DNA of 21,030 nucleotides from the IMG/VR virus record IMGVR_UViG_3300046012_000683, positions 1-21,030 of that record. One strand, 5' to 3'. Position 1 is the stretch's first letter. Each line of letters opens with the position of its first letter. The translations under genes and the position numbers were made by a program. Shown here one piece after another: positions 1 through 18,479 of this stretch. Origin of the DNA: a virus. Below the pieces are notes generated by a model that was given only the letters and a program-made list of their open reading frames with translations, made no database searches and was not told where the DNA came from.

Positions 1-392
1 AATGCGGCATCGCTACAGGCGGCTGGGCGCCCAGGGGTTGGATGACTGAGCGGGGACCGCGACCGACGATCCTGGGCATGTATGGCCTTGTAGAGCACTC
101 AGGCGGGTACCCCGACAGGACGCGAGAGAATATACTCGACGCCGACGCTACGCTGATCTTCGCTCGGGAACCGCTTGACGGAGGCAGCAAATTGACCGCT
201 AACCTGTGTCGCGGTTTTAAGAAGCCTCGCCTTGTGGTGCAACACCCAATGACGGGCCGACAGGTGCTTGAGTGGCTCGAAGAGGTGAGGCCCCGCGTCC
301 TCAACATCGCGGGCAATCGCGAGAGTAAGTCGCCGGGCATACACGACAGCACGCTCCGACTACTCGTTGTCGTCTTCAAGGCCCATCAATGA
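1..392 (+). CDS. Circularly permuted YpsA / putative molybdenum carrier-like protein, 5' truncated by the window edge
   Basis: The reading frame is open from base 3, so the gene starts before the window; the ATG at 42 is internal, because upstream codons encode CGIATGGWAPRGW, which fits the family motif GGWxPxG. Further family marks follow: RTRENILDADATLI, GGSKLTA, and a C-terminal LNIAGNRESKSPGI close to the family's LNVAGPRESKxPG. The family (cYpsA, PF12694, in the SLOG Rossmann-like superfamily) is thought to bind nucleotides or similar ligands; the 'molybdenum carrier' name comes from an old structural annotation and does not establish a function here. The stop codon overlaps the start of the polymerase gene by 4 bases (ATGA), so the two are probably co-translated. 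The role in the phage is unknown; nucleotide sensing or metabolism is an inference. Confidence 0.72.
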   Translation, partial: CGIATGGWAPRGWMTERGPRPTILGMYGLVEHSGGYPDRTRENILDADATLIFAREPLDGGSKLTANLCRGFKKPRLVVQHPMTGRQVLEWLEEVRPRVLNIAGNRESKSPGIHDSTLRLLVVVFKAHQ

Positions 393-3300
393 GCCTAGTC
401 AGGGACCCGGGCTGCACCAAGTGTAAGCTGCACGAGAGCGCGGAGTTCGTGTGTTTGCTCGGCAAGGGGCCCGAGCCCTGCTCTGTCATGGTGATCGGCG
501 AGGCGCCAGGCCACAGGGAGGACGAGTCGGGTAAGCCGTTCGTTGGCAGATCGGGCAAGTACCTCGAAGAGGTTCTCGAGGACGTCGGCCTGCCTCGCCA
601 AGACATCTTCATCACCAACGCTGTCAGTTGCAGGCCTCCCGACAATCGCACGCCGACGAAGCGGGAAATCAACGCGTGCAATCACTGGCTCCAGTACCAG
701 ATACGCAAGGTCAAGCCGAAATACATCCTGCTGCTGGGCAACGTCCCGCTACAGGCGATCACCGGCGAGAAGGGCATCACTCGAGCGCGGGGAAAACCCT
801 TCGAGAAAGACGGCATCACCTACCTAGCGACGTACCATCCGTCCTTCATCCTGCGCAACGACTACCAGGACGACACGATCTTCCGCAACGACCTGCGCTT
901 GTTCAAGTCGTTGGTCGAAGGCGGGGGCATGCCCAAGGAGGACAACCTCAGTATCCGAGTAGTGTCGGACGAGAAGACGTTCCGTCAGATGCTAAACGAT
1001 ATGGTCGGTACTGTATCGTTCGACATCGAGACCACAGGCCTGTACCCGTGGGCGAAGTACCAGCCCGACAAGCTGCCGAAGAAGTGGAAGAAGGACCCGC
1101 CCGACCCGCGCAGCTATGACGCCAAGGTGACCTCGCTGGGGTTCGGCACCCGGCGTCACCAATACATCATGCTAACGTCGGAGTTCGCCCTCACGCGGCA
1201 ACGACTCGAGGCCATAGGCAGTCGCCTAAAGGACTGCATAGTCGTCGGGCACTACGCGAAGTTCGACACCCTCTTCATGCTCGTCCAGCACAAGGTGACC
1301 TGGGACATAGACTTCGACACCGGCCTTGCGCATTACATGATTGACGAGAATTCTCGGCATGGGTTGAAGGAGCTCGCTCAGAAACTGTGCAACGCCCCGA
1401 ACTGGGACGTGGATAACGCAGTGAAGCAGGGCCGAGGCCCGCGGGATCGACTGATCTCCTACCATGCCCACGACCTGTACTACACGCGCCGCCTGAAATT
1501 CATTCTCGCTAAGTGGCTCGCCGAGGACCCACAGGTCGCACGGGTCTTCTACGATATTATGATGCCTCTGTGCGGCATCTTCAGGGATGCTGAGTTCGAG
1601 GGCGCTCGCGTCGACCTGTCCCGCATGGACGAAGTCGAGAAGACGCTCAAGGCGAAGATCAAGGAATGCGAAAAGAAGCTCGCCAAATGGGGCGACTTGA
1701 ACTGGGCCTCGCCGAAGCAAGTCGGCATACTGCTGTTCCGAGACCTCAAGATCAAGCCGATCACCTTCGGCAAGCCCAACGCCGATTGGCCCGACGGCAA
1801 TCCCTCGACGGCCGAGGCAGTGCTCAAGCAGATCGACCATCCTGTGGTCAAGGATTTGCTCGACTTTCGCGGCGCTCACCAGCAGCTGTCCTTCTTCGTT
1901 GACGGTTGGAAGCCCTACATCGTAGGTGACCGCATCCATCCGTCTTTCAAACTGACCGGCACCGTAACTGGTCGCTTGTCGTGCTTATCGGGCGACACGC
2001 CGATTATGGTACCGGGGGGAACGAGGCCAATTCAAGATGTAAACGTCGGCGACCTCGTCTATTGCTATGACAAACAGCAGAAGCTTACCCTAGGAAAAGT
2101 GTCGTGGTCGGGAAAGACGGGCATTAGGCAGGTATATCGAGTTGAGTGGGGCACAGGTCAACGCCGAGGCGTTTTAATTGCTACAGGGGACCATAAGGTC
2201 AGGCTATCAACAGGCAAATACAAGAGGGTAGATCAACTCACTGTAAACGACTCCGTGATGGCGTTGGCCCGTTTTGATCGACCGGATCAGGTGACTGCCT
2301 ACCCCGAGCTAAAGGTATTCGGAGGGCCTAAGCGGGGCCAAGATGAACACAGAATTCTGTTTCAACTGTTGCATGGGTGGTTGCCAGAAGATGTTCATCA
2401 CATAGACGATAATGTAAAAAACAATTCACCTACTAATCTCGAAGGCCTATCTCGTTCAGAGCACATGAAGGCACACCAAACGCCTCAAGAAGCAAGCAGA
2501 AGGGCGTACCTTGCTCATGCTCGCTTCGGTGACAAAATCGTTAAGGCCGCGGTCATGTCGAGGAAGGTTTGGTCACAGAAATTCCTATCAAGGGAAGCAG
2601 CGATAAAGGCCTATAAATCATGCGGCAATAATTCGAGGCTCGCCGCTGAGAGCCTAGGAGTATCTCGAAAAACCGTAGAGAGTAGACTTGGCGGGGAGTA
2701 TGGGTACAAGCCTAAAAACAATCACCAGATACTCTCGATTGAGTTGTTACCCGGCCTTCACGAAGTGTATGACATTACTGTGGACAAGCATCACAACTTC
2801 ATTGCTAACGAAGTTTGTGTCCATAATTGCGAACATCCAAATTTCCAGCAAATCCCTCGAGACCCGTTCATCCGAAGCCTGATCATTGCTCCCGAAGGCT
2901 GGGACCTGGTCGAGGCCGACTTGTCGCAGATCGAGTTGCGCATCGCTGCCGAGTTGTCTGGCGACAGAGCTCTGACGGAGGCGTTCCTCACCGGCAAAGA
3001 CCCGCACTGGATAACCGCCCTCAACGAGTTGAGTCGCGGGCAGGGCGAGCACAAGCGGGTAATCAAGACGGCCTGGAAGTTAGCGAACCGGCGAGTGACC
3101 TCTTACGCTGAGGCTATCGATATCCTGGGCGAGCACGGTGCTGACGCGGCAGTGGCCGTCGATTACGCTTGGAAGGAGTTGCGCAAGAAGGCGAAGGCGA
3201 TCAACTTCGGCTACCTGTTCGGTATGTGGTGGAAGAAATTCAAGCAGTACGCTCGGGAGAAGTATGACATCATCCTGACGGATGAACAGGCGGAGGAGAG

Positions 3301-3769
3301 TAGGACGGGTTTCTTCGACCTGTACTGCGACTTGCCCGCCTGGCACAAGCGCCAGAAACGGTTCGCGCGCCGGCATGGGTACGTCCGGTGCTTGTCGGGT
3401 CGCAAGCGTCGCCTGCCCGATGCAATGAGCCAGGAGGACACGCCTCAGAAGAAGGAGGCCGAGCGTCAGGCCATCAACTCGCCGGTGCAGGGGTTCGCCA
3501 ACGAACTGAACCTTATGGCGATCATCCAGCTCCGCAAGGAGTTCCCGCCTTCAGTGTACCGGCCCTTCGCTACCGTACATGACTCGATCCTCGCCTATGT
3601 TCGTTCTGACTGGCGAGAACGTGTCGCGGCTCGAACTAAGGAAATCATGCAGCACCCTGAGTTGCTCGACAAGTTAAAGGTCGACTTAAAAATCCCCATC
3701 GAGGCAGAAGTCACTATTGGCCCCTGGGGAAAAGGCAAGAAGTGGATGCCCACGAAATTAGCAGCCTAG
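389..3769 (+). CDS. Uracil-DNA glycosylase / 3'-5' exonuclease / family A DNA polymerase fusion with an internal intein
   Basis: 1,126 codons encode three enzyme domains; removal of the 282-residue intein (532-813) leaves 844 residues. Residues 1-175 resemble family 4 uracil-DNA glycosylase: GEAPG at 37-41, PFVGRSG at 50-56, SCRPPDNRTP at 80-89, YHPS at 149-152, and four cysteines (9, 12, 81, 97; spacing CxxC and Cx15C) expected to hold a 4Fe-4S cluster. Residues about 190-375 are a DEDDy exonuclease: FDIET (D212, E214), HYAKFD (D293), and YHAHD (Y358, D362). The polymerase follows: TGRLS before the intein, motif A with D844 (DLSQIELR), motif B R932/K936/F940, and motif C H1064-D1065. Tyr766 of E. 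coli Pol I is Phe944 here, and the A-B interval is about 40 residues longer than in E. coli. No 5'-3' exonuclease domain is present. It is the likely phage replicase, possibly with built-in uracil repair. Confidence 0.93.
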   Translation: MSLVRDPGCTKCKLHESAEFVCLLGKGPEPCSVMVIGEAPGHREDESGKPFVGRSGKYLEEVLEDVGLPRQDIFITNAVSCRPPDNRTPTKREINACNHWLQYQIRKVKPKYILLLGNVPLQAITGEKGITRARGKPFEKDGITYLATYHPSFILRNDYQDDTIFRNDLRLFKSLVEGGGMPKEDNLSIRVVSDEKTFRQMLNDMVGTVSFDIETTGLYPWAKYQPDKLPKKWKKDPPDPRSYDAKVTSLGFGTRRHQYIMLTSEFALTRQRLEAIGSRLKDCIVVGHYAKFDTLFMLVQHKVTWDIDFDTGLAHYMIDENSRHGLKELAQKLCNAPNWDVDNAVKQGRGPRDRLISYHAHDLYYTRRLKFILAKWLAEDPQVARVFYDIMMPLCGIFRDAEFEGARVDLSRMDEVEKTLKAKIKECEKKLAKWGDLNWASPKQVGILLFRDLKIKPITFGKPNADWPDGNPSTAEAVLKQIDHPVVKDLLDFRGAHQQLSFFVDGWKPYIVGDRIHPSFKLTGTVTGRLSCLSGDTPIMVPGGTRPIQDVNVGDLVYCYDKQQKLTLGKVSWSGKTGIRQVYRVEWGTGQRRGVLIATGDHKVRLSTGKYKRVDQLTVNDSVMALARFDRPDQVTAYPELKVFGGPKRGQDEHRILFQLLHGWLPEDVHHIDDNVKNNSPTNLEGLSRSEHMKAHQTPQEASRRAYLAHARFGDKIVKAAVMSRKVWSQKFLSREAAIKAYKSCGNNSRLAAESLGVSRKTVESRLGGEYGYKPKNNHQILSIELLPGLHEVYDITVDKHHNFIANEVCVHNCEHPNFQQIPRDPFIRSLIIAPEGWDLVEADLSQIELRIAAELSGDRALTEAFLTGKDPHWITALNELSRGQGEHKRVIKTAWKLANRRVTSYAEAIDILGEHGADAAVAVDYAWKELRKKAKAINFGYLFGMWWKKFKQYAREKYDIILTDEQAEESRTGFFDLYCDLPAWHKRQKRFARRHGYVRCLSGRKRRLPDAMSQEDTPQKKEAERQAINSPVQGFANELNLMAIIQLRKEFPPSVYRPFATVHDSILAYVRSDWRERVAARTKEIMQHPELLDKLKVDLKIPIEAEVTIGPWGKGKKWMPTKLAA
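1982..2827 (+). mobile_element. Intein with HNH homing endonuclease inside the DNA polymerase
   Basis: This in-frame 282-residue element starts at Cys532 (CLSGDTPIMV, block A) and ends in VHN followed by Cys814, the +1 extein nucleophile. Block B carries T599-G-D-H602 (TxxH), and block F/G reads VYDITVDKHHNFIANE...CVHN. All class 1 splicing residues are therefore visible. Joined exteins give TGRLS|CEHPNFQQIP, matching the TGRLSS..PN.Q.IP stretch of family A polymerases. The middle holds an HNH nuclease motif (HHIDDN at 670-675, NNSPTNL at 678-684, H692, H696) and then a helix-turn-helix around 735-766 (SLGVSRKTVESRL), which probably reads the target site. Composition differs from the host gene: 22 of 60 bases are G or C in 2401-2460 against 37 of 60 in 2941-3000, counted by eye, which suggests transfer from elsewhere. 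Confidence 0.95.
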
Positions 3770-3778
3770 GAGGAACCC

Positions 3779-4753
3779 ATGGCCCTGTTCTACGTGAGTC
3801 AATCGAAGTGCAACACCTACCGGCGGTGCAAGTACGCCTACTTCCTGCGCTACATCGAGAAGCTGCGCAAGCGCCTGAAAGGGCGGTCACTCAGTTTCGG
3901 CAGTGTCGCGCACGAGTTGTTAGAGGCTGACGCGAACGGCGACGACCCAATGGAGAAACTGGGTGAGCTGGCCAACAGCACGGAGAAGATGTTCAAGTCA
4001 GAGCGAGAAGACTACGAGGACATGATACAGGACGCCGAGGATATCATGGCCGACTATTTCAAGGTCGATTGGAAGGACAAATCGCTGAAGTTCATCCGTC
4101 GCAAGGCCAAGAGCGCTGAGCACGAGTTCGAGGTCGACCTGGTCAACGGCATCGTCCTAGAGGGCAAGCTCGATGCTATGGCGAAGACGCCCGACAAAAG
4201 GACCTGGCTCGTCGAGAACAAGACGTTCAACAAAATGCCCAACGACGACCACAGGTGGCGCAACTTGCAGAGCAACGTGTACGTCAGGGTGACCGAGATG
4301 TTGGGCCTGCCGCAAATCGATGGCCTGTGCTGGAACTACATCCGGAACCAACCCCTCGGCGTACCCCGATTGCTCAAGAACGGCACCTTCGGGCTGCGAC
4401 GGGTGAACACCCTGCCGACGCGCCTCGAGCGTTTCTTCCAGGAGAACAAACTCAAGGCCCGCGACTACCCGAAGATCGTGAAGGCTGCCGAGGACAATCG
4501 CCGGACCTACTTTGCACGCATTTTTTCCTCGGCAAAGAAGGCAACGGTTGACCGGATATTCAAGGACCTGATAGAGACAGCTTCCGAGATGGCCGACAGC
4601 CACGGGAAACTGATGGCCAAGACCATCGACCGTCACTGCGAGTGGTGCGACTACGAGGCGCTATGCCGAGCAGAGCTGCAAGGCGGAGACGTCGATTTCC
4701 TGAAGAAGAAGGAGTACTACGTCAGTGAGCACAAAAGACCGAAAAAGCGGTAA
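3779..4753 (+). CDS. PD-(D/E)XK nuclease, Cas4/RecB C-terminal-like, with Fe-S cysteines
   Basis: The 324-residue protein starts at an ATG 5 bases after a strong Shine-Dalgarno (AGGAGG, 3768-3773, overlapping the polymerase stop). It begins with the RecB/AddB-type SQSKCNTYRRCKYAYFLRY segment; H45 lies in FGSVAHELLE. The catalytic core has D132 in LEGKLDAM and E146-x-K148 in VENKT. Near the C-terminus, CEWCDYEALC supplies C287, C290 and C296, which with C17 match the four-cysteine 4Fe-4S signature of Cas4 and AddB-type nucleases. It probably acts as a single-strand exonuclease that processes DNA ends in recombination, together with the ATPase and SSB encoded just downstream. Which polarity it has cannot be told. 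Confidence 0.87.
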   Translation: MALFYVSQSKCNTYRRCKYAYFLRYIEKLRKRLKGRSLSFGSVAHELLEADANGDDPMEKLGELANSTEKMFKSEREDYEDMIQDAEDIMADYFKVDWKDKSLKFIRRKAKSAEHEFEVDLVNGIVLEGKLDAMAKTPDKRTWLVENKTFNKMPNDDHRWRNLQSNVYVRVTEMLGLPQIDGLCWNYIRNQPLGVPRLLKNGTFGLRRVNTLPTRLERFFQENKLKARDYPKIVKAAEDNRRTYFARIFSSAKKATVDRIFKDLIETASEMADSHGKLMAKTIDRHCEWCDYEALCRAELQGGDVDFLKKKEYYVSEHKRPKKR

Positions 4754-5516
4754 GCTGCCCGAGATTGTACCCGTGGGCGATATCGACAACCCCCGCAGCT
4801 GGTGCATTTACGGCAAGCCGGGCACCGGCAAGACGACCCTGTTCAGCACGTTCCCAAAGCCCTCGCTGCTGCTGGACTTCAAGGAGCGCGGTACCGACAG
4901 CATCGCCGACGTGCGCAAGATCGACGTGGCAAAGATACGCCACAGTGATGAGGTCGAGGCTCTCTACTGGGAGGCGAAGCGCGGGCGCCTCGATTACAAG
5001 TGTATTGGGTTCGATACGGTCAGCCAGTTCCAGGAGCTGCTGATGTTCGAGGAGACGGGCAAGAAGGACACTGCGAGTTGGGGCGCCGTCAGTCGCAAGG
5101 CCTACCAGAACGTGGGTGCAAAGCTCAAGCGGTTCATCACCGACTTCTGCGAGCTTGACGACTACGAGGTGGTGTTCATGGCCCATGAGCGGGTGTTCAA
5201 CATCCCCGATGAAGACGAAGTGGCCGACGACTTGCTCATGCCGGAAATCGGGCCCCGCCTCATGCCGAGTATCCGAGACGTCCTCAATGCCCAGGTGGGC
5301 GTCATCGGTCAGACGTATGTCCGCCTGAAGAGAACGAAGACCAAGGACGACACAGGCAAGACGCGCACCAAGGAGCGCATCCAATACTGCCTGTGGATCG
5401 GGCCCGACGCAATTAGAACTGCCAAAATTAGGAAGCCCCGGAGTGTGGTCCTGCCGAGCTACCTGATAGACCCAACGTATGAGGACCTCATGTCTGTAAT
5501 CAAAGGAGAAGAATAA
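4725..5516 (+). CDS. Sak4-like P-loop ATPase (phage recombination, AAA_24 type)
   Basis: The 263-residue protein has Walker A GKPGTGKT at residues 30-37 and a Walker B strand ending in D97 (CIGFDTVSQF). The size and the arrangement SWCIYGKPGTGKTTL...LLLDFKERG fit the phage nucleotide-binding/AAA_24 group that includes the Rad51-like single-strand annealing proteins called Sak4. The start is GTG at 4725, inside the end of the nuclease gene (29-base overlap), with GGAG at 4711-4714 as ribosome site. Its place between a RecB-like nuclease and an SSB is the usual setting of Sak4, whose annealing activity depends on a partner SSB in studied phages. ATPase fold is sure; the recombination role is inferred from family and neighbours. 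Confidence 0.82.
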   Translation: MSTKDRKSGKLPEIVPVGDIDNPRSWCIYGKPGTGKTTLFSTFPKPSLLLDFKERGTDSIADVRKIDVAKIRHSDEVEALYWEAKRGRLDYKCIGFDTVSQFQELLMFEETGKKDTASWGAVSRKAYQNVGAKLKRFITDFCELDDYEVVFMAHERVFNIPDEDEVADDLLMPEIGPRLMPSIRDVLNAQVGVIGQTYVRLKRTKTKDDTGKTRTKERIQYCLWIGPDAIRTAKIRKPRSVVLPSYLIDPTYEDLMSVIKGEE

Positions 5517-5518
5517 AC

Positions 5519-6211
5519 GTGGCACGCGATAGGAAGAGAAGCAATACCATTTCAGTCGACTTCGCCGGCGTCGAGAGCCGGGTAAAAGTCGAAGAAGGCG
5601 AACACTCAGTAGAAGTGTCGGAGGTATCGAAGGAGCGCGGCGACAAGGGCGACTACATATCCTGGAAGTTCAAGGTCTTCGAGGGTGACTGCGAAGGCGG
5701 CGTCCTGTACTACAACACCAGCCTGACCAAGCAGTCGCTGTGGAACCTCAAGCAGTTGCTCGAGGCGCTCGGTGAGGACGTTCCCGATGACGAGATGGAC
5801 ATCGACCTGGCCGAGATGATCGGCAAGCAGATGACGGCCGTTACCGACACCGAGACCTTCGAGGGCAAACCCAAGTCCCGGATCATTGACTTCTCGGCGC
5901 TCGAGAAGCGGTCAAGCAAAAAGGAGCGCAAGAAGGACCGGGACGACAAAGACGAAGACAAGGACAAGAAGGATCGGAAGGGCCGGGACAAGGACGACGA
6001 CAAAGACAAGAAGGATCGCGGCAGCAAACGCGACAAGAAGAAGTCGAAGAAAATCGCCCAGGACGAAGTGCTCGACATGAGCCAGGACGAACTCCAGGAC
6101 TTGGTCAAAGAGCATGAATTGGACGTCGACCTCGATGACTTCAAGTCGCTCACCAAGATGCGGAACGCGGTGATCGACAAGCTCGAAGGGGAAGACCTGC
6201 TCGAGTCGTAA
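5519..6211 (+). CDS. DUF669-like single-stranded DNA-binding protein with Lys/Asp tail and small C-terminal domain
   Basis: The 230-residue protein starts at GTG with AAAGGAG about 10 bases upstream. Residues 10-125 resemble the phage DUF669 SSB fold: YISWKFKVFEG (46-56), then VLYYNTSLTKQSLWNLKQLL (62-81). Residues 128-179 are almost only Lys, Asp, Arg and Glu, and residues 183-225 form a short helical domain (MSQDELQDLVKEHELDVD...MRNAVIDKLE) that looks like a SAP/HeH/Rho-N type nucleic-acid or protein contact module. Typical members lack both additions or end in a simple acidic tail. It follows the Sak4-like gene with 2 bases between, so it is probably its SSB partner and coats ssDNA during replication and annealing. 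Confidence 0.75.
   Translation: MARDRKRSNTISVDFAGVESRVKVEEGEHSVEVSEVSKERGDKGDYISWKFKVFEGDCEGGVLYYNTSLTKQSLWNLKQLLEALGEDVPDDEMDIDLAEMIGKQMTAVTDTETFEGKPKSRIIDFSALEKRSSKKERKKDRDDKDEDKDKKDRKGRDKDDDKDKKDRGSKRDKKKSKKIAQDEVLDMSQDELQDLVKEHELDVDLDDFKSLTKMRNAVIDKLEGEDLLES
5963..6018 (+). repeat. Internal 14-bp direct repeat in the SSB charged tail
   Basis: GACAAGAAGGATCG occurs at 5963-5976 and again at 6005-6018, 42 bases apart (14 codons, in frame). It encodes DKKDR twice in the Lys/Asp tail, so the tail probably grew by slippage or in-frame duplication. Confidence 0.8.
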
Positions 6212-7114: not shown

Positions 7115-7438
7115 ATGCGCAAGCTCACCCAGGCTCGCCGCGACCGTGTCCTCGACCTGTGGGCCGAGGGCAAGGGGTTGTCGATGAGAACAATATCCGA
7201 ACGCCTGGGCTTGAGCCTGTCGACCGTTCGCCGAGTGATCGAGCCGCTCGTTTTGATCGACAAGGCGCCGGCTGGGCGGTCCCACAACCGGCAAACGCCC
7301 GTTGCTCGTAGGTCGATGACAGGCGAGGGCGCGCCCTGCCCTGCCCCCGTCAAAAACGCTCGACCTAATACACCAAAAAAGGTGTTAATTACGCGCTGCC
7401 GGAGCGCCGATTGGTCGAGGGCCTGGCGCAATGGCTAG
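7115..7438 (+). CDS. Helix-turn-helix protein, possible regulator
   Basis: The 107-residue protein has an N-terminal helix-turn-helix (RDRVLDLWAEGKGLSMRTIS...LGLSLSTVRRVIEPLV, residues 9-46) of the sigma-region-4/resolvase type. Residues 50-107 are rich in Pro, Arg and Ala and probably disordered. The ribosome site is weak, so coupling to the gene 3 bases upstream is likely. The end of the gene overlaps the nuclease start by 8 bases and holds an AT-rich inverted repeat, which could be a binding site for this protein itself. Regulator is inferred from the fold only. Confidence 0.62.
   Translation: MRKLTQARRDRVLDLWAEGKGLSMRTISERLGLSLSTVRRVIEPLVLIDKAPAGRSHNRQTPVARRSMTGEGAPCPAPVKNARPNTPKKVLITRCRSADWSRAWRNG
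7366..7391. promoter_or_regulatory. AT-rich imperfect inverted repeat 40 bases upstream of the VRR-NUC gene
   Basis: TAATACACC (7366-7374), AAAAAA, then GGTGTTAATTA (7381-7391): five perfect pairs next to the loop and four more after a two-base bulge. It stands out as an AT island in GC-rich DNA and lies in the last codons of the HTH gene. An operator or promoter part is possible; no clear -35/-10 pair could be assigned. Confidence 0.35.
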
Positions 7439-7799
7439 GCAACCCGAGGGGCGATTGCAGCGACGTATCCGCAAGGCCCTCGAGAAGCAGGTAGGGGGGT
7501 TCTGGATGAAGATACACGGTTCCGAGTTCCAGCGTGCCGGCATGGGTGACCTGCTGGGGTGCGTGCATGGCTTGTTCTTCTCCATTGAGGTCAAGCGCGC
7601 GAAGAAGGGCAAGCTCAGCGACGTGCAGATAGAAACGCTGTGCGACATCGGCGACGAGGGCGGAAACGTCGAGGTCGTAGTCAACTCAAAGCAGGCGGTC
7701 AAGTTCGTGCAGTCGGTGCTCGCCGACAAGAAGCCTCGCCGGAAAACGTTACCGTCCGTCGGCCCCGAGCTGCTCAAGGTATTGGTGAAGAGGCGGTGA
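7431..7799 (+). CDS. VRR-NUC domain nuclease
   Basis: The 122-residue protein is a single VRR-NUC domain, the standalone phage form of the PD-(D/E)XK nuclease found in FAN1. It shows E6 in the first helix, G37-M-G-D40-L, the strand FFSIEVK with E53 and K55, Q66 after KLSDVQ, and the closing GGNVEVVVNS. Family members cut branched DNA such as Holliday junctions or flaps. The ATG has GAGGG at 7418-7422, and its stop overlaps the GTG of the helicase gene (GTGA), so nuclease and helicase are made together and probably act on the same DNA structures. Confidence 0.88.
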   Translation: MARQPEGRLQRRIRKALEKQVGGFWMKIHGSEFQRAGMGDLLGCVHGLFFSIEVKRAKKGKLSDVQIETLCDIGDEGGNVEVVVNSKQAVKFVQSVLADKKPRRKTLPSVGPELLKVLVKRR

Positions 7800-9214
7800 C
7801 CCTGTGGTCCCAGCTTAGACCGCTGCAGAAATCGGCGGTCAAGTTCTGCCTCAAGCAATCGACCGTTGCTCTATTTTTCCGTCAACGACTCGGGAAGACC
7901 TGGATAGCGCTGGGTGTCATCGAGCAGCTCCGGCCCTCGCTCACCCTGATCGTTGTGCCGTTGACCAACAAAGAGTCGACTTGGGCTGACCTGATACACT
8001 CGAAGCTGCCCGACTACGACTTGCTGACATTCCCCGACAAGATCAAGCGCAAGGGCCTGCTGAAGGCGCTGCGCGGTTTCAAGTCGGGCATCCTGTTGCT
8101 TCACTTCGAGCAAATGGTAGCAGTGATCGAACAGCTGAGGCGGCGCGACTGGGATTTAGTCGTCATCGATGAGTGCCACAGGCTCAAAGACAAGGGGTCG
8201 CGTTCATCCCGGGCGGCTGATAAGCTGTCATACGCTCGCAGGAAGATCGGGCTCTCCGGAACGCCCATCGAGGACCAACCCTCCGACGTATGGGCGCAGT
8301 TCCGGTTCATAGCGCCGAACGTCCTCGGCACATGGTGGGCTGACTTCGACGCGACATATATGGAGCAGCCCGAGCATGATCCCTATGCCAAGGACTCGTC
8401 TGGCAGAATGAAGTATCGCATCAACTCGCCCGGGTTTAGGCGAGCGATGATGCGCTACCGCATCGAGAAGCGACGGTGCAAGTTCAGGGCGGACAAGCTG
8501 TCGGACTTCCTCGACTTGATAAAGCCCTACTCGTGGCGGGAGGACTTGCCCGGGCCTGCGCCTAAATTCCATATAGAGCGCGTTGTGCTGCGCGGCGATC
8601 AGCGGGAGTTGTACGAACAGCTGCGCAAGCGTCGAGTCATCAGAGTCGGCAAGAAGCGCATCACTGCGCCGATGAAGATGACACTCAACGAGAAGCTCGC
8701 GCAGATTTGCGGCGGGTACTTGATTGACGACGTTGGGTCAGTGCATGAGGTCGGGCGGGCGAAGCTGCGTCGATTGCACACGATACTAGATCGGTGGGGC
8801 TCGCCTGCGGTCATCTTCTGCCGCTATACCGCCGAGGTAGAAGCGATCAAGCATGAGGTGGGGGGGAGGGTTGCTGTGCTGTCGGGTCAAACGCCGCGGA
8901 AGCAGAGACCGGGCATCCAACGCGCCTTTCAGGCGGGCAAGATCGATCGTTTGATTTGCCAGATACGCACAGGCGGGGTTGGTGTCGACTTGTTCAGAGC
9001 GCGTTACCTAGTCGTGTTTTCTTGCAACTTCAGCTCGATTGATTTTAGCCAGATGGTTGCGCGTATCCAGTTGCCGGACCAAGAACGGCCGGTCGATATT
9101 ATTCTTATCGTTGTTAACGACTCTGTTGACACTGACAAGTTGAACGTATTACGTGACAAATCCTCGCGGACAGACAGAACACTGTCCTCACTCAAAAGGA
9201 GCTTACATGACTAA
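7796..9214 (+). CDS. SNF2-like superfamily 2 DNA helicase/translocase
   Basis: The preferred start is the GTG at 7796 overlapping the nuclease stop; the longer open frame back to 7640 only shadows the nuclease. The 472 residues hold LRPLQKSAV (motif Q-like, 7-15), the Walker A variant RQRLGKT (29-35, K34), DECH (125-128), SGTP (154-157), the C-terminal lobe VIFCRYTAEVEAI, the motif V stretch RTGGVGVDL, and a motif VI-like SQMVARIQLPDQ. It uses ATP to move along duplex DNA. The first Gly of the P-loop is replaced by Arg, as in other phage members with an R-x-GKT loop, so it is probably active. Together with VRR-NUC it may process recombination intermediates or remodel protein-bound DNA. Confidence 0.88.
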   Translation: MTLWSQLRPLQKSAVKFCLKQSTVALFFRQRLGKTWIALGVIEQLRPSLTLIVVPLTNKESTWADLIHSKLPDYDLLTFPDKIKRKGLLKALRGFKSGILLLHFEQMVAVIEQLRRRDWDLVVIDECHRLKDKGSRSSRAADKLSYARRKIGLSGTPIEDQPSDVWAQFRFIAPNVLGTWWADFDATYMEQPEHDPYAKDSSGRMKYRINSPGFRRAMMRYRIEKRRCKFRADKLSDFLDLIKPYSWREDLPGPAPKFHIERVVLRGDQRELYEQLRKRRVIRVGKKRITAPMKMTLNEKLAQICGGYLIDDVGSVHEVGRAKLRRLHTILDRWGSPAVIFCRYTAEVEAIKHEVGGRVAVLSGQTPRKQRPGIQRAFQAGKIDRLICQIRTGGVGVDLFRARYLVVFSCNFSSIDFSQMVARIQLPDQERPVDIILIVVNDSVDTDKLNVLRDKSSRTDRTLSSLKRSLHD

Positions 9215-9519: not shown

Positions 9520-9933
9520 TCACCTCTTAGTGACGATCAGCGCATCGCAGGACGGTTCCTGGGCATAACGATTGGTCAACTTGACGTAGTCCGTCTGGTA
9601 CTTCCGAATAGCCTCGGTCGCAAACGACAGCGCAGGCATATTGCCCTGGATTTGGGCGTAGCATCGCAGCTCGACGGCATCTCGGATATTCCTCTCGATC
9701 TGGCCGACGCGTATATCTCGCAGCTGTTCTTGCTGCGTCTGACTTTGGGCAGATGAGGTGAACCCGGAGAAAATAAACGGGATCAAGCCCCAAATGAGGG
9801 ACGTCTGTACCATCTGAAAACCTCCTAATATAACGAGGCAGAGAGCCACAGTCTGCCTCCATCTGAAGACGTGTTCTGGCTCGTCGGTTTCAGGGGTCGG
9901 GAAAAGTGCGGCTGCGAGGTCAGATAGGATCAT
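9520..9933 (-). CDS. Membrane protein of the lysis region, unknown function
   Basis: The 137-residue protein is the last gene of the late operon; its ATG overlaps the Rz1 stop (ATGA). Residues about 27-58 (TVALCLVILGGFQMVQTSLI then WGLIPFIFSGF) form one long or two short membrane spans. The remainder (60-137) is polar, helical, Gln/Arg-rich and has two Cys (91, 129), like a periplasmic coiled coil. Position suggests a lysis accessory or second holin, but no family is recognised. Confidence 0.65.
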   Translation of the reverse strand: MILSDLAAALFPTPETDEPEHVFRWRQTVALCLVILGGFQMVQTSLIWGLIPFIFSGFTSSAQSQTQQEQLRDIRVGQIERNIRDAVELRCYAQIQGNMPALSFATEAIRKYQTDYVKLTNRYAQEPSCDALIVTKR

Positions 9934-10178
9934 TTCGAGACAGCCCCTACTAATCCGTGGTGCCTGTCGGCGCAGTCGTAATAGAGCTCACTGACTTCCG
10001 TCAGCTTGCGTAATACCGTTTTCGCTTGACCGTCTTGAAGGGGCGTTAGGCGGGGGCATTCCGCCAACAGGTTCGCCGGGAGGGGCTTCCGGTCCGGCAA
10101 GAGCGGCATTGGCGAGGAGCAAGCCGTCATCGTCAAAGCACTCACGAGAATAAACGGTAGTGCTACCCTCAATAACAT
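9930..10178 (-). CDS. Rz1: Rz1-like outer-membrane spanin lipoprotein, nested in Rz
   Basis: The 82-residue lipoprotein has a signal peptide (LLRVALPFILVSALTMTAC) with the lipid-bearing Cys at residue 20, followed by a Pro-rich stretch (PMPLLPDRKPLPANLL) as in o-spanins. Its first two thirds lie in another frame inside the end of the Rz gene. A consensus ribosome site, AGGAGGT at 10184-10190, sits 5 bases before the ATG, within Rz codons, showing the nested gene is really translated. Exported to the outer membrane, it should join the Rz protein across the periplasm and fuse the membranes in the last step of lysis. Confidence 0.85.
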   Translation of the reverse strand: MLLRVALPFILVSALTMTACSSPMPLLPDRKPLPANLLAECPRLTPLQDGQAKTVLRKLTEVSELYYDCADRHHGLVGAVSK

Positions 10179-10434
10179 TGTCCACCTCCTGTACTATGTG
10201 CTTGTAAAAGACGCGGGCCGTCGAGTGACCCAGCTCGTAAGCAGTCGAGGCCTCACCCGCCTTCTCCTGCTCGGCGTCAGCGACGAGTCGAGCCTGCTGC
10301 TGGAGGGCCTCGATGCGATGCTCGCCGCGCAGAGTCGCGATTGACGAGCCCTCGTACCATCCGCCGCCGGCTGAGGCCAGCAGCAGCCCCCCAGCGACGA
10401 TGATAAACCACGGGTTGAGGAATAATGGGTTCAT
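9988..10434 (-). CDS. Rz: Rz-like inner-membrane spanin
   Basis: The 148-residue protein has an N-terminal signal-anchor (residues 8-27, PWFIIVAGGLLLASAGGGWY), then a helical coiled-coil region rich in Ala, Gln and Glu (32-90), and the typical late motif YSRECFDDDGLLLANAALAG (95-114) of phage Rz proteins. Past residue 115 it is Pro/Gly rich, the part that shares its DNA with Rz1. Its ATG overlaps the stop of the upstream holin candidate. It bridges the inner membrane to the Rz1 lipoprotein. Confidence 0.86.
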   Translation of the reverse strand: MNPLFLNPWFIIVAGGLLLASAGGGWYEGSSIATLRGEHRIEALQQQARLVADAEQEKAGEASTAYELGHSTARVFYKHIVQEVDNVIEGSTTVYSRECFDDDGLLLANAALAGPEAPPGEPVGGMPPPNAPSRRSSENGITQADGSQ

Positions 10435-10688
10435 GCCTTTGCCTCCGTTCTTCGCTTCATCTCGGCTTTCACCGCGGCGACAATGTGAGCACCTGTGGTC
10501 GCAACAAGCAGGGGAATGCCCGGGTGACTGTCAGTACTTGTAAGTGATGCGCGAATTTGGTCGCCGACTTGAGCTAACCCGTTCGCGAGGTTCACTAGCG
10601 TTGCGCCCCATAGCCCGATCTTCGTGAGCGACAGGCGGGGCCGTGTCAAGTCGTCCTCGAGCAAGTTCAAGAAATCAAGTACCCTCAT
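10431..10688 (-). CDS. Holin candidate
   Basis: The 85-residue protein lies between endolysin and Rz and overlaps both genes by 4 bases, the usual holin slot. Residues 23-42 (KIGLWGATLVNLANGLAQVG) and 57-73 (GIPLLVATTGAHIVAAV) are weakly hydrophobic stretches that may span the membrane; the C-terminus KAEMKRRTEAKA is basic, as holin tails are. No family is recognised, so the call rests on position, size and charge. Confidence 0.55.
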   Translation of the reverse strand: MRVLDFLNLLEDDLTRPRLSLTKIGLWGATLVNLANGLAQVGDQIRASLTSTDSHPGIPLLVATTGAHIVAAVKAEMKRRTEAKA

Positions 10689-11146
10689 GGCCGCACGATG
10701 ATGCCGGGGTGGTATTGGGGGTCGCCTGAGAACTTCGACAGCAGCTGGCGACGATCACCGGGACCCACAGCAAAGTGACACCAGGACTCGTATTCGTAGA
10801 TGACTTGATCGAACTCGAGCTTCTGGGTTTGCGCCAGGCGTCGGCATACCTCGATGGGCGTGCCGAACCTCGGTGCTGTGAAGTCGGCAGCAAGCCCTAG
10901 CATGTGGGCGCTGGTGCGCGAGGAGCCGGCTACGGCATCATTCACCCGCTGACACCGGTACCCGGACGTGACGATGAGCGGGACGCTGCCCAGGATCGCC
11001 CTGACGATCTCTAGGTGACCCGCCAGGCGGGTTAGGTTCGACACGATATCGGGGGGCGGTTCGAACTGCTCGGTGAAGCCCTCGCGCGCCGCCTTCTGGG
11101 ACACGAGCAATTCCTCGAGCGTGAAGTTTATGGAGAGCCTGGTCAT
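10685..11146 (-). CDS. Endolysin, peptidase M15 family (D-Ala/L-Ala-D-Glu type peptidoglycan peptidase)
   Basis: The 153-residue protein matches the M15_3 group: FTLEELLVS at the start, SGYR (61-64), zinc ligands H81 and D88 in SAHMLGLAADF, and H124 in WCHF, with DQVIYEY before it. These zinc peptidases cut peptide cross-links in peptidoglycan. There is no signal peptide, so release depends on the holin. It follows the tail fibre gene with a 1-base overlap (TGATG). Confidence 0.88.
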   Translation of the reverse strand: MTRLSINFTLEELLVSQKAAREGFTEQFEPPPDIVSNLTRLAGHLEIVRAILGSVPLIVTSGYRCQRVNDAVAGSSRTSAHMLGLAADFTAPRFGTPIEVCRRLAQTQKLEFDQVIYEYESWCHFAVGPGDRRQLLSKFSGDPQYHPGIIVRP

Positions 11147-12165
11147 CAGTTCGCCGTCAGGCCGAAGAAGGTGACGCCTGCATCCGAGGGGTCAGACGCC
11201 TGACCGCCGGAGCCGCCCGCATCGCCGAAGTAGATATCCACGACGGGGTCGACGCCGGAGAAGCCTTTGCCCATGCCGATGGAGCCGGCCGTCGCCGGGT
11301 TCGGGCCGTTGCCGGTGGGAGCCGCGTAACCGTGAGTGTAGTTGAGACCTCCGGACAGCGTCGCTTGGTAGTGGCCCACCCCAATCCGCGCGATTGAGGC
11401 CACGTTGAAGGAGGCGGTAACGACAACAGCGGCACCACTCCAGTGGAAATTCGCCCATGCCTTTATGGCAGAGTTGTGGTACGGCAAGTACTTCGCAGTC
11501 ACCTGCTTGACATCGTTGGTGCCGGTCTCCATGTCGGCGGCGAGCGCGGGGCCGTGCGTCATGCTCTGGAGGACGAAGCCGAGGGAGGCGACATAGACGA
11601 CTTCGAACACGCCACCCGTGGGTAGTTCTGCGGCGCCCGGATTTGTGCCGTCGGCGTGAACGATGGGCGTTGCAGGCAGCCCATTGACGACCAGTGTGGC
11701 TGCACCGGTGTTGTCTGATGCAGCCTTCTTGATCCTGACAGGCGCGCCCACGAGGTTCGCCAGGGCAAGGGGATCGGGCGACAGCATGATGCTCAACGCG
11801 TCGGCGGACCCCGTATCGACCGCGTAGTTCGACGTCTGCTGCTGGTTCGCGCTGTTCTGGTTCTGGATCGTTGTCATCTGACCTGCGGTCAGCAGGTTCG
11901 AAGCGTTCGCTCCAGCGCTCCAGGCGGCAGCCGTAGTGCCCTCTTGCGCTCGCACTAGAGTAACCGCGTCACCCGTTCGAGAGGTGACATGCGCAATCTC
12001 GTAGGGCCCGGTTGAGGGATCGCCGAGGGTCATCACGAAGTAGTCGCTGCCTGTGGGCGAGGGGAACAGAGCGCCGGTGCCCGCAGCGAGGTTAGCCGCG
12101 GTGGCTACGTTGGTGATGGAGCCAGCGAGGGTTGAAAAAGCGTCATTCGCAAACAAGACTGCCAT
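11146..12165 (-). CDS. Tail fibre protein
   Basis: The 339-residue protein opens with a segment common in tail fibres (FANDAFSTLAGSIT, then the VTSRTGDAVTLVRAQEGTTA signature, 60-79). A short Gln/Asn-rich helix (103-113) follows, then the repeat-type beta module DPLALANLVGAPVRIKKAAS...GAATLVVNGL (131-168). The C-terminal 120 residues are Gly- and Ser-rich beta structure and probably the receptor-binding tip. TAGGAG lies 8-13 bases before the ATG. No chaperone gene is seen next to it. Host receptor unknown. Confidence 0.8.
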   Translation of the reverse strand: MAVLFANDAFSTLAGSITNVATAANLAAGTGALFPSPTGSDYFVMTLGDPSTGPYEIAHVTSRTGDAVTLVRAQEGTTAAAWSAGANASNLLTAGQMTTIQNQNSANQQQTSNYAVDTGSADALSIMLSPDPLALANLVGAPVRIKKAASDNTGAATLVVNGLPATPIVHADGTNPGAAELPTGGVFEVVYVASLGFVLQSMTHGPALAADMETGTNDVKQVTAKYLPYHNSAIKAWANFHWSGAAVVVTASFNVASIARIGVGHYQATLSGGLNYTHGYAAPTGNGPNPATAGSIGMGKGFSGVDPVVDIYFGDAGGSGGQASDPSDAGVTFFGLTAN

Positions 12166-12175
12166 TGTGAGGCTC

Positions 12176-15100
12176 CTAGGGTTCGTTGACTACGTAGGTG
12201 AATTGGAAGGGAAGCTCGAGGGCGCCGGATTGGATCGCCGCCTTTAGTTGCGGGATATTGATCAGCGGGGTGAAGGGCACGAACGAGGTGTTCAGTTCGT
12301 TGTAGGCTTTTTGGTTGAAGCCCATTCGGTTGAACAGTGCTCCCCCCAAGGTCGAGTGAACCCCGGCGAGGAAGTTGATGTTGACTTGGTTGCCGATGCC
12401 GAAGGTGACACTGATCTGGTAGGTGCTGTCCACATTGAAGGGCACGCCATCAACACCGAGCAGGAATTGCATGATGCGGCGCTTGAGCCAACGGATGTTG
12501 AACACCTTGCCGTAGCTCTTCTGGATATGCCACGTCAGGATGCGTCGGAAGAAGTCGTCAGTCGTTACGAAGTCGGCCTGGCTCCCGAGCCTGCGGATCA
12601 TGTTGTACGGCAGAACGTTGAAGCCGTAGGTGTTGAAGGGCCCGATCACTGACCGATTACCTGACCCGAGAGCAGGCCGCCTCATGCCGTACAGGCCCTC
12701 TGCTACCCAGTCGAGCAGCGCTCCGCTAATCGGGTCCTGAGTGTAGATCGGCAAGTGGAGCGCGTTGAACCAATCGGCAAACTCCTGGGCGATGGTGTTG
12801 TACGCAGCCACAAAGGCTTGCATGTCGTCGTCATCGTTGTACTCCTGATACAGGAACGACGGAATGACCTGCGGCAGCATACCAGACGGCAGAGGCGAAG
12901 TAATGCCTAATTCGGCGACCTCTCCGTGGGCTTCGACGCCAACGAGGTTCACGTCCAGAGAGGAGGAGAGGAGCGTGAACACCGGTTCGGTCGCGGCAAA
13001 GGCCGCGTCTCTATCATAGGTATCACCGAACCACAGGACAGCCCCGGCGTCTTCATTGAAAAAGAGTTGGTTCTGGTTAGAGTTGATCAGGCCGCAATTC
13101 GTCCAGGTCGTCTCGATGTCGTAGCCCACACTGGAGAAATCGGCCGTATCATAAATGTAGATGGACGGCGTGACGCTGTTGTCGAAGGTCGTGAACTTGC
13201 TTTGCGTTGTCCACCCGATATTGCAGAGCGGCTGCCCCCACGCGCTGGAGTGCGGCCAGTCTTGAACCGCATCGAGGGTCGCCGAGCCTATGTGATAGGC
13301 TCTGAACCAACCCTGATGGACCACCTCCGATGCGTTATCTGTCGCCCAAAGGAAGAGGGTGTCACTGGGCTGGTGATAGTTGATGAATGGATAATAGAAG
13401 AAAGCATCGAAATCAGGGTTCGTACCGAGCGGGTAGTAATTGTCGGGGATAGTCGTGGACGAGAGGATGGTTAAAGCCGGCGTCGGAGAACCCGAGACCG
13501 ACAGCTTGTGCAGTATCGACTGGGCGTATTTGTGCTGGCCGGTGATGCCGGTCGGGTCGCGCGGCTGCTCGACCGCCCAGAGGTGACCGGCCGCATCGAA
13601 CACGCCATTGACGACTAAGCCGTTGATCCCCAGGCCGGTCAGGTCAATATAGCTGTGATCCCCGTTAGTGGTGTTCCACAGCTCTACAAAGGATGCTATG
13701 AACGTAGTGCTCGCCGGAGGAGCGAGCGGGTTGACTGTATTGTCCCCAAAACGCGCAGCCCAAGTCCCATCCATCGAAACAGTGAGATATGTTCCGAACT
13801 CCAACTCGTCTGTGCCGCTAGTGTTGTAATCGACCCCCGGAAAGGCTTGGAGGACAGCGAGGGTTGTGCGGCTGAGCTGAACCAGGCTGGTGTGGTAGAT
13901 GTTCGTAGTTGGGTTGCTATATACCGGCATGTAGACGAAGTTATCGTCGGTCCACGCCCCCCCGATGTTCCCCTCGAACCGGAACGCCATATCGGAGAAG
14001 CCGGTCGCCGAGAGGATGGCGGCCGAGAGGACGGGGCCGGTCTGAGCGACAGAGTCGTCCACCGTAGACTTCTTCCTCAGCCACCAATCGGTATCGTCGA
14101 TGTTCGAGCTGAGGACGAATATGGTCCCGATGCTCTGAGGGTCCACAAAGCCGTGGGCGTCAAGACCTCCCTGAGCGATAACCAGCCTCGGCGCGGCCTG
14201 AATGGCGTCATAATTGAGGATGCCCCATTGACCGCTTCCGCTGAGACTGCCGCTGTCGGCGACGATGACGGTTCGGTTATCCCCGTTCCAGACTTGGCAG
14301 GTATAATCCCACGTCGCGTGCTGATTGAATACTTGCGAACTGCTGGAGCCGTCCGTCAGGTCCGTCAGCGTGACGGTATTCAGAACCTCCAAGTTGGCCA
14401 GGCTGCCGCTGATCAGCGAGCCCTGCAGGTTGGTCCCGGAGAAGTAATCGGTCGTGGTCTTGTCGAAGGCCCGCCAGACGACCGCCCCGGTCGCCTTGTT
14501 GAGCTTGAACATGTACCCGCCGTCGTCGCCCTCGGCCCAAGTGCAAAGCGTGCCGTCGCCGGGATCGTACACCATGCTGCCGGTGTTGTTGATGTCAGTC
14601 CAGGCAGCGACGAAGTCCGTTGGGGCGATGGTCGCAACCGTGGTCATAACCAAGCCGCCGCCGACCGTGTAGACAACTTTGTCGAGATGGCAGTTGGTCG
14701 GCGACCCCCAGTTCGTCGTCAGGACGTAGACCTCGCCGGCATTGGCGCCGCCGGGGCAAGGGATGATCCGGTCGCCGGAATTGGGGTAGATGCCGGCCGC
14801 CACGGAGGTCATCGTCGAAGCGTCGATGATCTCTACATTAGTGGCCGACGAGTTCTCCTGGACGAGGGCCAGGTATTGGACGCCGGCGGATTGGAACGGG
14901 ACGAGGTAAAAGTCGAAGGTCGAGGAGTAGTTGCCGGTGTTCGACAGGAGCGTCGGACGGACGGCGGCGACCTCCAGCAAAGTCCCGAGATTGATCTTCG
15001 AGACGTGCGCGTCGCCCTGGTCGTTCGCGTATGTAGACGAGATGACGTAAAGGAACCCGTCGGCCCCGACGCAGAAGCTCCGGTCCGCCACGGTATCGGT

Positions 15101-15295
15101 GCCAGACACCACGCCGATGGCGGCGAAGTTCGTCTCCGATAGCCTCGCCCCGGTCGTGTAGTTGAACAGCCCCAGATACGTCGGATTAGGGGCATACTGA
15201 AACGCGACTATGCGGCCCCCCGCGCGGTCCGGAACGACCGAGTCGGAACTGAGGTGACCGCCGGTCCCCGGTATTAGCTCGATATAGAGGGTCAT
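12176..15295 (-). CDS. Large tail protein: propeller-like N-terminus joined to a phage tail-protein C-terminus
   Basis: The 1,039-residue protein, with its ATG overlapping the previous stop (ATGA), has two parts. Residues about 1-790 are all-beta with repeated strand-turn units such as HVSKINLGTLLEVAAVRP, YMFKLNKATGAVVWRAF and TSLVQLSRTTLAVLQAF, and no signal peptide; this resembles WD/PQQ-type beta-propellers. Residues about 800-1039 contain DPISGALLDWVAEGLYGMRR, FFRRILTWHIQKSYGKVFN and RWLKRRIMQFLLGVDGV, which recalls a tail protein normally encoded just before the fibre in related myophages and there close to 240 residues long. It probably joins baseplate and fibre, with the propeller exposed for host contact; both points are inference. 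Confidence 0.75.
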   Translation of the reverse strand: MTLYIELIPGTGGHLSSDSVVPDRAGGRIVAFQYAPNPTYLGLFNYTTGARLSETNFAAIGVVSGTDTVADRSFCVGADGFLYVISSTYANDQGDAHVSKINLGTLLEVAAVRPTLLSNTGNYSSTFDFYLVPFQSAGVQYLALVQENSSATNVEIIDASTMTSVAAGIYPNSGDRIIPCPGGANAGEVYVLTTNWGSPTNCHLDKVVYTVGGGLVMTTVATIAPTDFVAAWTDINNTGSMVYDPGDGTLCTWAEGDDGGYMFKLNKATGAVVWRAFDKTTTDYFSGTNLQGSLISGSLANLEVLNTVTLTDLTDGSSSSQVFNQHATWDYTCQVWNGDNRTVIVADSGSLSGSGQWGILNYDAIQAAPRLVIAQGGLDAHGFVDPQSIGTIFVLSSNIDDTDWWLRKKSTVDDSVAQTGPVLSAAILSATGFSDMAFRFEGNIGGAWTDDNFVYMPVYSNPTTNIYHTSLVQLSRTTLAVLQAFPGVDYNTSGTDELEFGTYLTVSMDGTWAARFGDNTVNPLAPPASTTFIASFVELWNTTNGDHSYIDLTGLGINGLVVNGVFDAAGHLWAVEQPRDPTGITGQHKYAQSILHKLSVSGSPTPALTILSSTTIPDNYYPLGTNPDFDAFFYYPFINYHQPSDTLFLWATDNASEVVHQGWFRAYHIGSATLDAVQDWPHSSAWGQPLCNIGWTTQSKFTTFDNSVTPSIYIYDTADFSSVGYDIETTWTNCGLINSNQNQLFFNEDAGAVLWFGDTYDRDAAFAATEPVFTLLSSSLDVNLVGVEAHGEVAELGITSPLPSGMLPQVIPSFLYQEYNDDDDMQAFVAAYNTIAQEFADWFNALHLPIYTQDPISGALLDWVAEGLYGMRRPALGSGNRSVIGPFNTYGFNVLPYNMIRRLGSQADFVTTDDFFRRILTWHIQKSYGKVFNIRWLKRRIMQFLLGVDGVPFNVDSTYQISVTFGIGNQVNINFLAGVHSTLGGALFNRMGFNQKAYNELNTSFVPFTPLINIPQLKAAIQSGALELPFQFTYVVNEP

Positions 15296-15756
15296 GTCAG
15301 TCTCAGGATTGCTGTGGTCGGCGCATTGACGGGCATCACCAGGTTAAGGGTCTGAGCCACGGGTGATTGCACGCCTGCAAACCCGCCGACATACACCACC
15401 CGATTGCTCTTGCTTGAATTGTAGATCATGCAGCCCGAGGTCGACAGCGTAGCAGCGAGCCACTGAGGGTTCGCGCTCCAGGACCAATAGCCTCGACCTC
15501 CTGCAGATTGAGGGGTGATGTTCTGGCCTGCCGTAAAGGCGAAGCCGCCCGTGGAGTACCCTGACCCATTCGGTACTTCGTCGCCGTTCGCGACCAGCTC
15601 CGAGTAGTTCGTTGTGTCAGCGTTGTAGGTCCCGACCGGGATAGCAACCCCCAGCGCACACTTGAACACGTCCCCCGTAGTGGTTATGAAATTGTGCAGA
15701 GCCTGCGCTAGTTCACTCTTAAGCGATGTCGGGAATGCTGTGGTAAACCCGCTCAT
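15292..15756 (-). CDS. Small virion protein next to the tail fibre genes
   Basis: The frame is open from 15843, but the ATG at 15756 overlaps the previous stop (ATGA) and starts MSGFTTAFPTSLKSELAQALHNF; the longer version overlays the upstream gene. The resulting 154 residues match a pattern common near phage fibres: a helix (LKSELAQALHNFI), an ALGV strand, TTNYSELVANGDEVPNGSGYSTGG, then beta strands ending in NAPTTAILRL. Structural or receptor-binding accessory role inferred. Confidence 0.7.
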   Translation of the reverse strand: MSGFTTAFPTSLKSELAQALHNFITTTGDVFKCALGVAIPVGTYNADTTNYSELVANGDEVPNGSGYSTGGFAFTAGQNITPQSAGGRGYWSWSANPQWLAATLSTSGCMIYNSSKSNRVVYVGGFAGVQSPVAQTLNLVMPVNAPTTAILRLT

Positions 15757-16121
15757 GGTGCGGCACTCGCGCTGGTGAGGTTCTGCGCAATCCTGTCCTG
15801 GATAGCCTGTCGGATAGTGGGCTCTGAGAAATTCGTCGACCACGGGGTGCTGGCGACTATCGTCAGAATGTCATTCGTAGCGGCCTCGGCTGCTGATAGA
15901 ATTCGCTCGGGAGTTGGGTCGAGGCGAACACTGAGGAACGTCAGCATTAAAGCGCCGGCGATCTTTTGGCGGATAAGAGCGATCAGAGCGAAGGCCTGCG
16001 GCGATGCGCCAGCTCCGGCCTCCACAATCTGCTTAGTTGTAACCACTGCCCACTGTCTCGGCGTTCCGCCGACTATCGGGGTCATCGACCCCGCTACAGC
16101 CTGACTAGCAACAGACTCCAT
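15753..16121 (-). CDS. Hypothetical protein between baseplate J and fibre-region genes
   Basis: 122 residues, Ala/Ile/Thr-rich and probably mostly helical (QAFALIALIRQKIAGALMLT at 42-61; SAAEAATNDILTIVA further on). AGGGGT lies before the ATG. In related baseplate operons a small wedge-type or tail-protein gene sits here; no family motif is recognised. It shares the operon with 4 bases between it and the J gene. Confidence 0.6.
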   Translation of the reverse strand: MESVASQAVAGSMTPIVGGTPRQWAVVTTKQIVEAGAGASPQAFALIALIRQKIAGALMLTFLSVRLDPTPERILSAAEAATNDILTIVASTPWSTNFSEPTIRQAIQDRIAQNLTSASAAP

Positions 16122-16125
16122 ATTT

Positions 16126-17535: not shown

Positions 17536-17906
17536 TAGTATCCGGGCCTCTGTGAGAGTTCACGCAAGGGGATATCAGTGGTTATCTTGACGCCCTGGTG
17601 AGTCGTTGCGCTAATGTTGTACGTCGGAGTACGCGACGGCTGCTTGGTGACGATCAAGCTCGCGAACAACGGGGCGAACTGCTGCTGCGTCCGGGCGACG
17701 TAGAAGTCAGGGAAAATCTGCTGGACCACAGAGGGCTTCGCCGGGATACCGTAGGCCGAGTAGAACGGCGACTCGCCGAGGTTCAGCAGAAGCACCTGGA
17801 TAAGGTTCACCAGGTACACCATATCGTTCGACCCGTCGGGTGCCGTTTCGACAACGGTCCACTTCTTGTTGCCGAGTTCATCGGTGTATCGACCGTAAAT
17901 CCTCAT
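17535..17906 (-). CDS. Baseplate gp25/W-like protein (sheath initiator)
   Basis: The 123-residue protein lies between spike and J genes, the standard place of the gp25/W-type protein, and overlaps both (ATGA and TAATG). DMVYLVNLIQVLLLNLGESP (residues 28-47) followed by FYSAYGIPA corresponds to the family's helix and 'R..PFY...G' region, although the usual EPR of classic gp25 is replaced by NLGESP. In solved baseplates such proteins start the sheath. Confidence comes from position plus this segment. Confidence 0.7.
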   Translation of the reverse strand: MRIYGRYTDELGNKKWTVVETAPDGSNDMVYLVNLIQVLLLNLGESPFYSAYGIPAKPSVVQQIFPDFYVARTQQQFAPLFASLIVTKQPSRTPTYNISATTHQGVKITTDIPLRELSQRPGY

Positions 17907-18475: not shown

Positions 18476-18479
18476 GGCT

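Follow-up and report, generated by a model that had tools for sequence, protein, structure and literature searches.

We analysed a stretch of viral DNA of 21,030 nt (IMG/VR record IMGVR_UViG_3300046012_000683, positions 1 to 21,030), here called the window, which comes from an uncultured virus and is available as contig sequence only. A plus-strand gene at 389..3769 encodes a uracil-DNA glycosylase (UDG), a 3'-5' exonuclease and a family A DNA polymerase that is interrupted by an intein; all parts of the gene given below are on the same strand. The precursor has 1126 amino acids (aa), of which 844 would remain after the predicted splicing. The open reading frame (ORF) is a single frame with zero internal stops, and Pfam detects all three enzyme domains: the UDG (PF03167, 4e-34, aa 25-160), the exonuclease (DNA_pol_A_exo1, PF01612, 7e-13, aa 240-375) and the polymerase (DNA_pol_A, PF00476, 1e-65). 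A preliminary description of the stretch had claimed that these three enzymes share one frame, and the uninterrupted ORF with its Pfam matches agrees with it.

The exonuclease is DnaQ-like and its Pfam match lies at 1106..1513. Its catalytic residues D212 and E214 stand just ahead of this match, whereas D293, Y358 and D362 are within it. The C-terminal polymerase part behind the intein (2828..3766, PF00476) contains D844, R932, K936, H1064 and D1065, and these residues of both domains are invariant across 74 aligned polymerases (see below). By these signatures the window protein is a family A DNA polymerase with a 3'-5' exonuclease. The preliminary description had called the polymerase part full; its catalytic residues are present, but it is not continuous, as the overlooked intein (C532-N813) splits it. 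Structure prediction, which had been proposed as a check, was done with AlphaFold2: all three enzyme domains were modelled with high confidence, the intein with low confidence. Fold searches with complete models matched polymerases only, and these covered the polymerase parts, not the UDG part. As a side observation, F944 (nt 3218-3220) aligns by our own comparison with Tyr766 of E. coli PolI, and phenylalanine is found there in 12 of the 74 polymerases.

The UDG domain (aa 9-172, 413..904) scores 161 bits against the family-4 profile (TIGR00758 UDG_fam4, cutoff 125.3). It contains the motifs GEAPG (37-41), CRPPDNR (81-87) and YHPS (149-152), and its four iron-sulfur (Fe-S) cysteines, C9, C12, C81 and C97, are all aligned with those of the UDGa of Thermus thermophilus (TthUDGa, 1ui0). 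In TthUDGa, seven pocket and catalytic residues have been defined by mutagenesis (E41, G42, E47, F54, N80, N89 and H155; PMC5387724). The window UDG fills all seven positions, if glycine or alanine is allowed at 42, with E38, A39, E44, F51, N77, N86 and H150, respectively. By profile, cysteines and pocket residues, the domain thus belongs to family 4 (UDGa), and the earlier claims of a family 4-like UDG and of intact catalytic motifs throughout the protein are confirmed. We rejected an identity as UdgX, since TIGR03914 gives 129 bits (cutoff 190), the motif is GEAPG and not GEQPG, and the KRRIH loop is absent. With its complete active site, the N-terminal domain is presumably a catalytically competent UDG. 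It has the fold family and all catalytic and pocket residues in common with TthUDGa; however, TthUDGa is a free-standing repair enzyme, whereas the window UDG is fused to a polymerase. The fusion would thus tie uracil repair to the replicase in one chain.

The intein (1982..2827, 282 aa) consists of a Hint splicing domain with an inserted HNH endonuclease. It matches the profiles Intein_splicing (Pfam, aa 570-813), HNH_3 (PF13392, 3.6e-9, aa 654-693, at 2348..2467) and intein_Cterm (NCBIfam). Its blocks are complete, with the N-terminal C532, TGDH in block B and VHN followed by C814 at the C-terminal end. The predicted splice junction is S531|C814, where the polymerase is split at TGRLS|CEHPN; excision restores TGRLS-CEHPNFQQIPRD, and relatives that are free of the intein read TGRLSCEHPNLQQVPRD uninterrupted. 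Among the aligned relatives, the in-frame insertion at TGRLS is missing from all except the viral contig L133. Same-site inteins are found in L133 and L158; the one in L133, which keeps the HNH residues, is 50% identical to that of the window, and its host polymerase is 44-54% identical by domain. Furthermore, the GC content is lower in the intein than in the exteins (0.49 vs 0.58-0.61), also at third codon positions (GC3, 0.51 vs 0.75-0.84). Judged from its sequence, the insertion is an intein with an HNH endonuclease, for which splicing is predicted. The insertion site is two residues past R529, the TGRLS arginine that is invariant in 74/74 aligned polymerases, and splicing would thus be needed for polymerase activity.

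The DNA polymerase of Rhodobacter phage RcKickapoo carries an intein at the equivalent PolA site, which ends in VCVHN and is 27% identical to the window intein, but its ORF has no UDG match, unlike the window. A literature search found no paper on a PolA intein at the TGRLS site, although such an absence is not proof. Two further observations concern inserted sequences: directly behind the intein-containing polymerase gene of L133 there is an ORF with HNH-endonuclease-like sequence (L133:6888-7610), and in the polymerase ORF of another contig (L145:2799-5669), the C-terminal polymerase part is extended between its positions 73 and 93 by about 97 residues, to which the window intein has no match.

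As the source is an uncultured contig of which the DNA sequence is all that is available, one has to consider that the gene is non-functional as read, either because the intein no longer splices or because the 21-kb contig joins unrelated sequence. We find this very improbable, as the splicing blocks are complete, L133 is an independent contig with a similar intein at the same site, and the adjacent replication genes correspond to those found in relatives.

The preliminary description had supposed that the fused architecture is rare, which does not hold: it is present in many isolated phages, has been published for one of them and has been solved in another. The domain-architecture search that had been proposed for UDG and PolA in one protein found many fusions. 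A UDG protein search of phage records matched 103 records, and among the 60 matches listed, 34 are annotated as polymerase, in addition to SPO1 gp31. The fusion was found in SPO1 gp31, PaBG, Serbin, PMBT14, the Thermus phage phiLo and dozens of viral contigs. Scans of viral contigs with the single window protein or with the intein alone confirmed nothing, whereas alignment-based scans succeeded and yielded several dozen further members; after copies were removed, 74 aligned polymerases remained. Wherever a UDG was found in this clade, it shares its ORF with the polymerase, and a Pfam search of the whole of 39 records revealed no second, separate UDG. This excludes that the UDG is made from its own gene in relatives and was joined to the polymerase by a frameshift in the window. 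The sole split that we saw is in the podovirus ctLwi270 (L009), where one ORF holds UDG and exonuclease and another the polymerase part; two contigs at the edge of the clade (L139 and L144) have no detectable UDG.

Among the known phages, the Myoviridae sp. ctfzr933 (MW202455), Serratia phage Serbin and Pseudomonas phage PMBT14 resemble the window in that genes for a PD-(D/E)XK nuclease and a Sak4-like protein come after UDG-exonuclease-PolA. They differ from it in that the intein is absent and the record contains dCMP deaminase and thymidylate-synthase-like genes, and Serbin and PMBT14 have altered UDG motifs (GDAPN and GDNPN, compared to GEAPG in the window). The DNA polymerase I of phiLo likewise joins a UDG, in which the motifs GEAPG and HPS are present, and a family A polymerase in a single chain, and from residue 34 onward it is identical to the solved chain PDB 9qhs, on which a literature search found no paper (again not proof of absence). 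It is, however, very distant from the window protein (about 31% in the UDG part), has 1175 aa, and no intein match was reported. The DNA polymerase I of the Pseudomonas jumbo phage PaBG (gp205) has been described with a UDG domain within PolI that was modelled on 1ui0 (PMC7412058); we liken it to the window by this description, not residue by residue. Thus, the window protein is a further member of the already known phage UDG-PolA fusions, to which the intein and the repeated decay of the glycosylase described below are added points.

SPO1 gp31 has the same order of an N-terminal UDG-superfamily domain, exonuclease and family A polymerase, but its UDG part is without the Fe-S cysteines and has QENPF in place of GEAPG. 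The PDB entries of UdgX that are named 'Phage SPO1 DNA polymerase-related protein' probably point to this type of fusion. In SPO1, a group I intron lies between the residues equivalent to Asn675 and Leu676 of E. coli (PMC2814812). This self-splicing element is in the same motif as the window intein, about four residues downstream of its site by our own count against E. coli PolI. The TGRLS region, shared by the inteins and the SPO1 intron, is thus a concise example of how independent mobile elements target the same essential codons.

The state of the UDG differs among these polymerases. By residue criteria, 70 of the 74 could be classified: 24 are intact (a strict count would be lower, as two of them, Serbin and PMBT14, deviate in motif 1 and at pocket positions), 12 have kept the cysteines and lost pocket residues, and 34 have no complete cysteine set. 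Within the intact class, E38 is conserved in 22 polymerases, as are F51 and N77, which are outside the definition of the class; N86 and H150 are conserved in all 24 but are part of that definition. We mapped the states on a tree of the 74 rows that was inferred with a quick method from the exonuclease and polymerase columns only, with 38 of 71 branches strongly supported. Eleven changes are needed; the cysteine-less state alone needs four, three of them forced by well-supported branches. The tree itself gives no direction, but the changes are most simply read as losses, several of them independent, because the intact form equals the free-standing family-4 enzymes.

The degenerate domains have not been released from selection. 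The ratio of nonsynonymous to synonymous substitutions (dN/dS) in the UDG region of degenerate pairs (dS below about 1.3, identity at least 58%) is 0.03-0.26, for instance 0.05 for L039-L041, 0.03 for L037-L039, 0.10 for L042-L046 and 0.09 for L118-L119, compared to 0.11 for the intact pair L016-L145; these values come from simple pairwise comparisons, in many of which dS is close to 1 or higher. The degenerate domains are thus under purifying selection and retained for a purpose other than excision. A profile built from the most degenerate ones matches the intact profile with 99.7% probability over the C-terminal two thirds and matched no PDB chain, and the structure model of a degenerate relative (L042) has a mean predicted local distance difference test score (pLDDT) of 87.

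This decay bears on the role of the domain in the window. We consider it likely that the window encodes a polymerase with a working UDG attached, which is spliced from an intein precursor, and that the UDG domain also has a non-catalytic role. The family A polymerase of this contractile-tailed phage would be made as a UDG-exonuclease-polymerase chain with an in-frame intein, and splicing at S531|C814 would remove the 282 aa before the polymerase can work. The family-4 UDG would then remove uracil from the DNA handled by the polymerase. The preliminary description had placed this removal at the fork, which is plausible for the intact copy of the window but cannot be the sole reason for keeping the domain, since 46 of the 70 relatives retain it after the loss of Fe-S cysteines or pocket and catalytic residues. 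A domain under purifying selection whose active site is gone suggests a non-catalytic role as well, for which DNA binding or positioning on the replicase would be the simplest option.

The same 46 relatives, the several independent losses and the purifying selection on degenerate copies also fit a domain that serves all members chiefly as an extension of the polymerase for structure or DNA binding, in which case the intact catalysis of some would be inherited and unimportant. The conservation of the catalytic residues over long divergence in the intact lineages suggests selection for the chemistry, however, so that we regard such a purely structural role as unlikely. Alternatively, the domain could be a uracil sensor, which would stall synthesis by binding uracil in the template before it reaches the active site, like archaeal family B polymerases, and would not excise it. 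The archaeal read-ahead pocket belongs to family B and the window enzyme to family A, and the analogy is thus functional only. The fusion to a polymerase would suit a sensor, as would two contigs (L133 and L124) that have N or S at the histidine position and retain most other motifs, and the H155S variant of Thermus UDGa, which loses catalysis with its Michaelis constant (Km) kept (PMC5387724). A pure sensor would not need the catalytic histidine and asparagine, however, which are kept in the window and 23 relatives, and the pocket is also gone in most degenerate lineages; we thus find this reading quite unlikely.

Several points weigh against a working glycosylase with an additional role. In the best-matching isolated phages (of Desulfofustis and Brevundimonas) the UDG is degenerate, so that polymerases of the clade do not depend on its catalysis to function, and in L133, the other intein carrier, the motif histidine is replaced by N. 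Furthermore, the dN/dS values are coarse, and the upstream nucleotide-metabolism genes of the window phage fall outside the fragment. Whether a glycosylase captured by phage replicases repeatedly became a non-catalytic module with the domain retained, while lineages like that of the window keep both functions, appears to us evenly balanced. In this family, glycosylases ranging from complete to dead occur naturally on polymerases with invariant catalytic residues, which makes it testable why the domain is kept: uracil removal, uracil sensing or DNA handling.

With regard to nucleotide metabolism, a dCMP deaminase gene is present in 38 of the 39 clade records, usually close to the polymerase gene, and in none of the 9 control records with UDG-less polymerases; the sole clade record without it is L133. 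As dCMP deaminase makes dUMP, its presence gives a reason for uracil control in the clade. Members with a degenerate UDG have the gene just as well, and it is also found in the two clade members that lack a UDG; its distribution thus follows the polymerase clade rather than the state of the UDG. None was found in the 21-kb window, which starts right at the polymerase. A link between the UDG state and genes for thymidylate synthase, ThyX, dCMP deaminase or dUTPase was considered and rejected, as no clean association emerged: PF00303 accompanies both intact and degenerate UDG, no trimeric dUTPase was found in the records searched, and dimeric dUTPase occurs in 6 records, mostly with intact UDG or in the outgroup.

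The polymerase gene is preceded on the plus strand by a cpYpsA gene of the SLOG family (3..392, PF12694, 5.6e-30), which is cut by the window edge; its stop codon and the start codon of the polymerase share the ATGA at 389-392. This family is absent from all 39 related records searched, most of which have the dCMP deaminase gene near the polymerase instead. Downstream on the same strand are a PD-(D/E)XK nuclease (3779..4753, PF12705, phrog_1218), a Sak4-like ATPase (4725..5516, phrog_124, PF13479), a DUF669 protein (5519..6211, PF05037, phrog_3724), a VRR-NUC/Hjc-like nuclease (7431..7799, phrog_93, 1.8e-15, with a weak Pfam match) and a SNF2-type helicase (7640..9214, PF00176, phrog_62). Together with PolA, these five form a replication module that is conserved with the relatives. 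As listed, the SNF2 ORF begins within the VRR-NUC gene, and its true start is probably near 7796. The window virus is a contractile-tailed phage. Its tail and baseplate genes are on the minus strand at 9520-21030, opposite in direction to the replication genes, and include a match to the baseplate wedge family phrog_6 (16126-17535) and a gene for a protein of 1039 aa (12176-15295).

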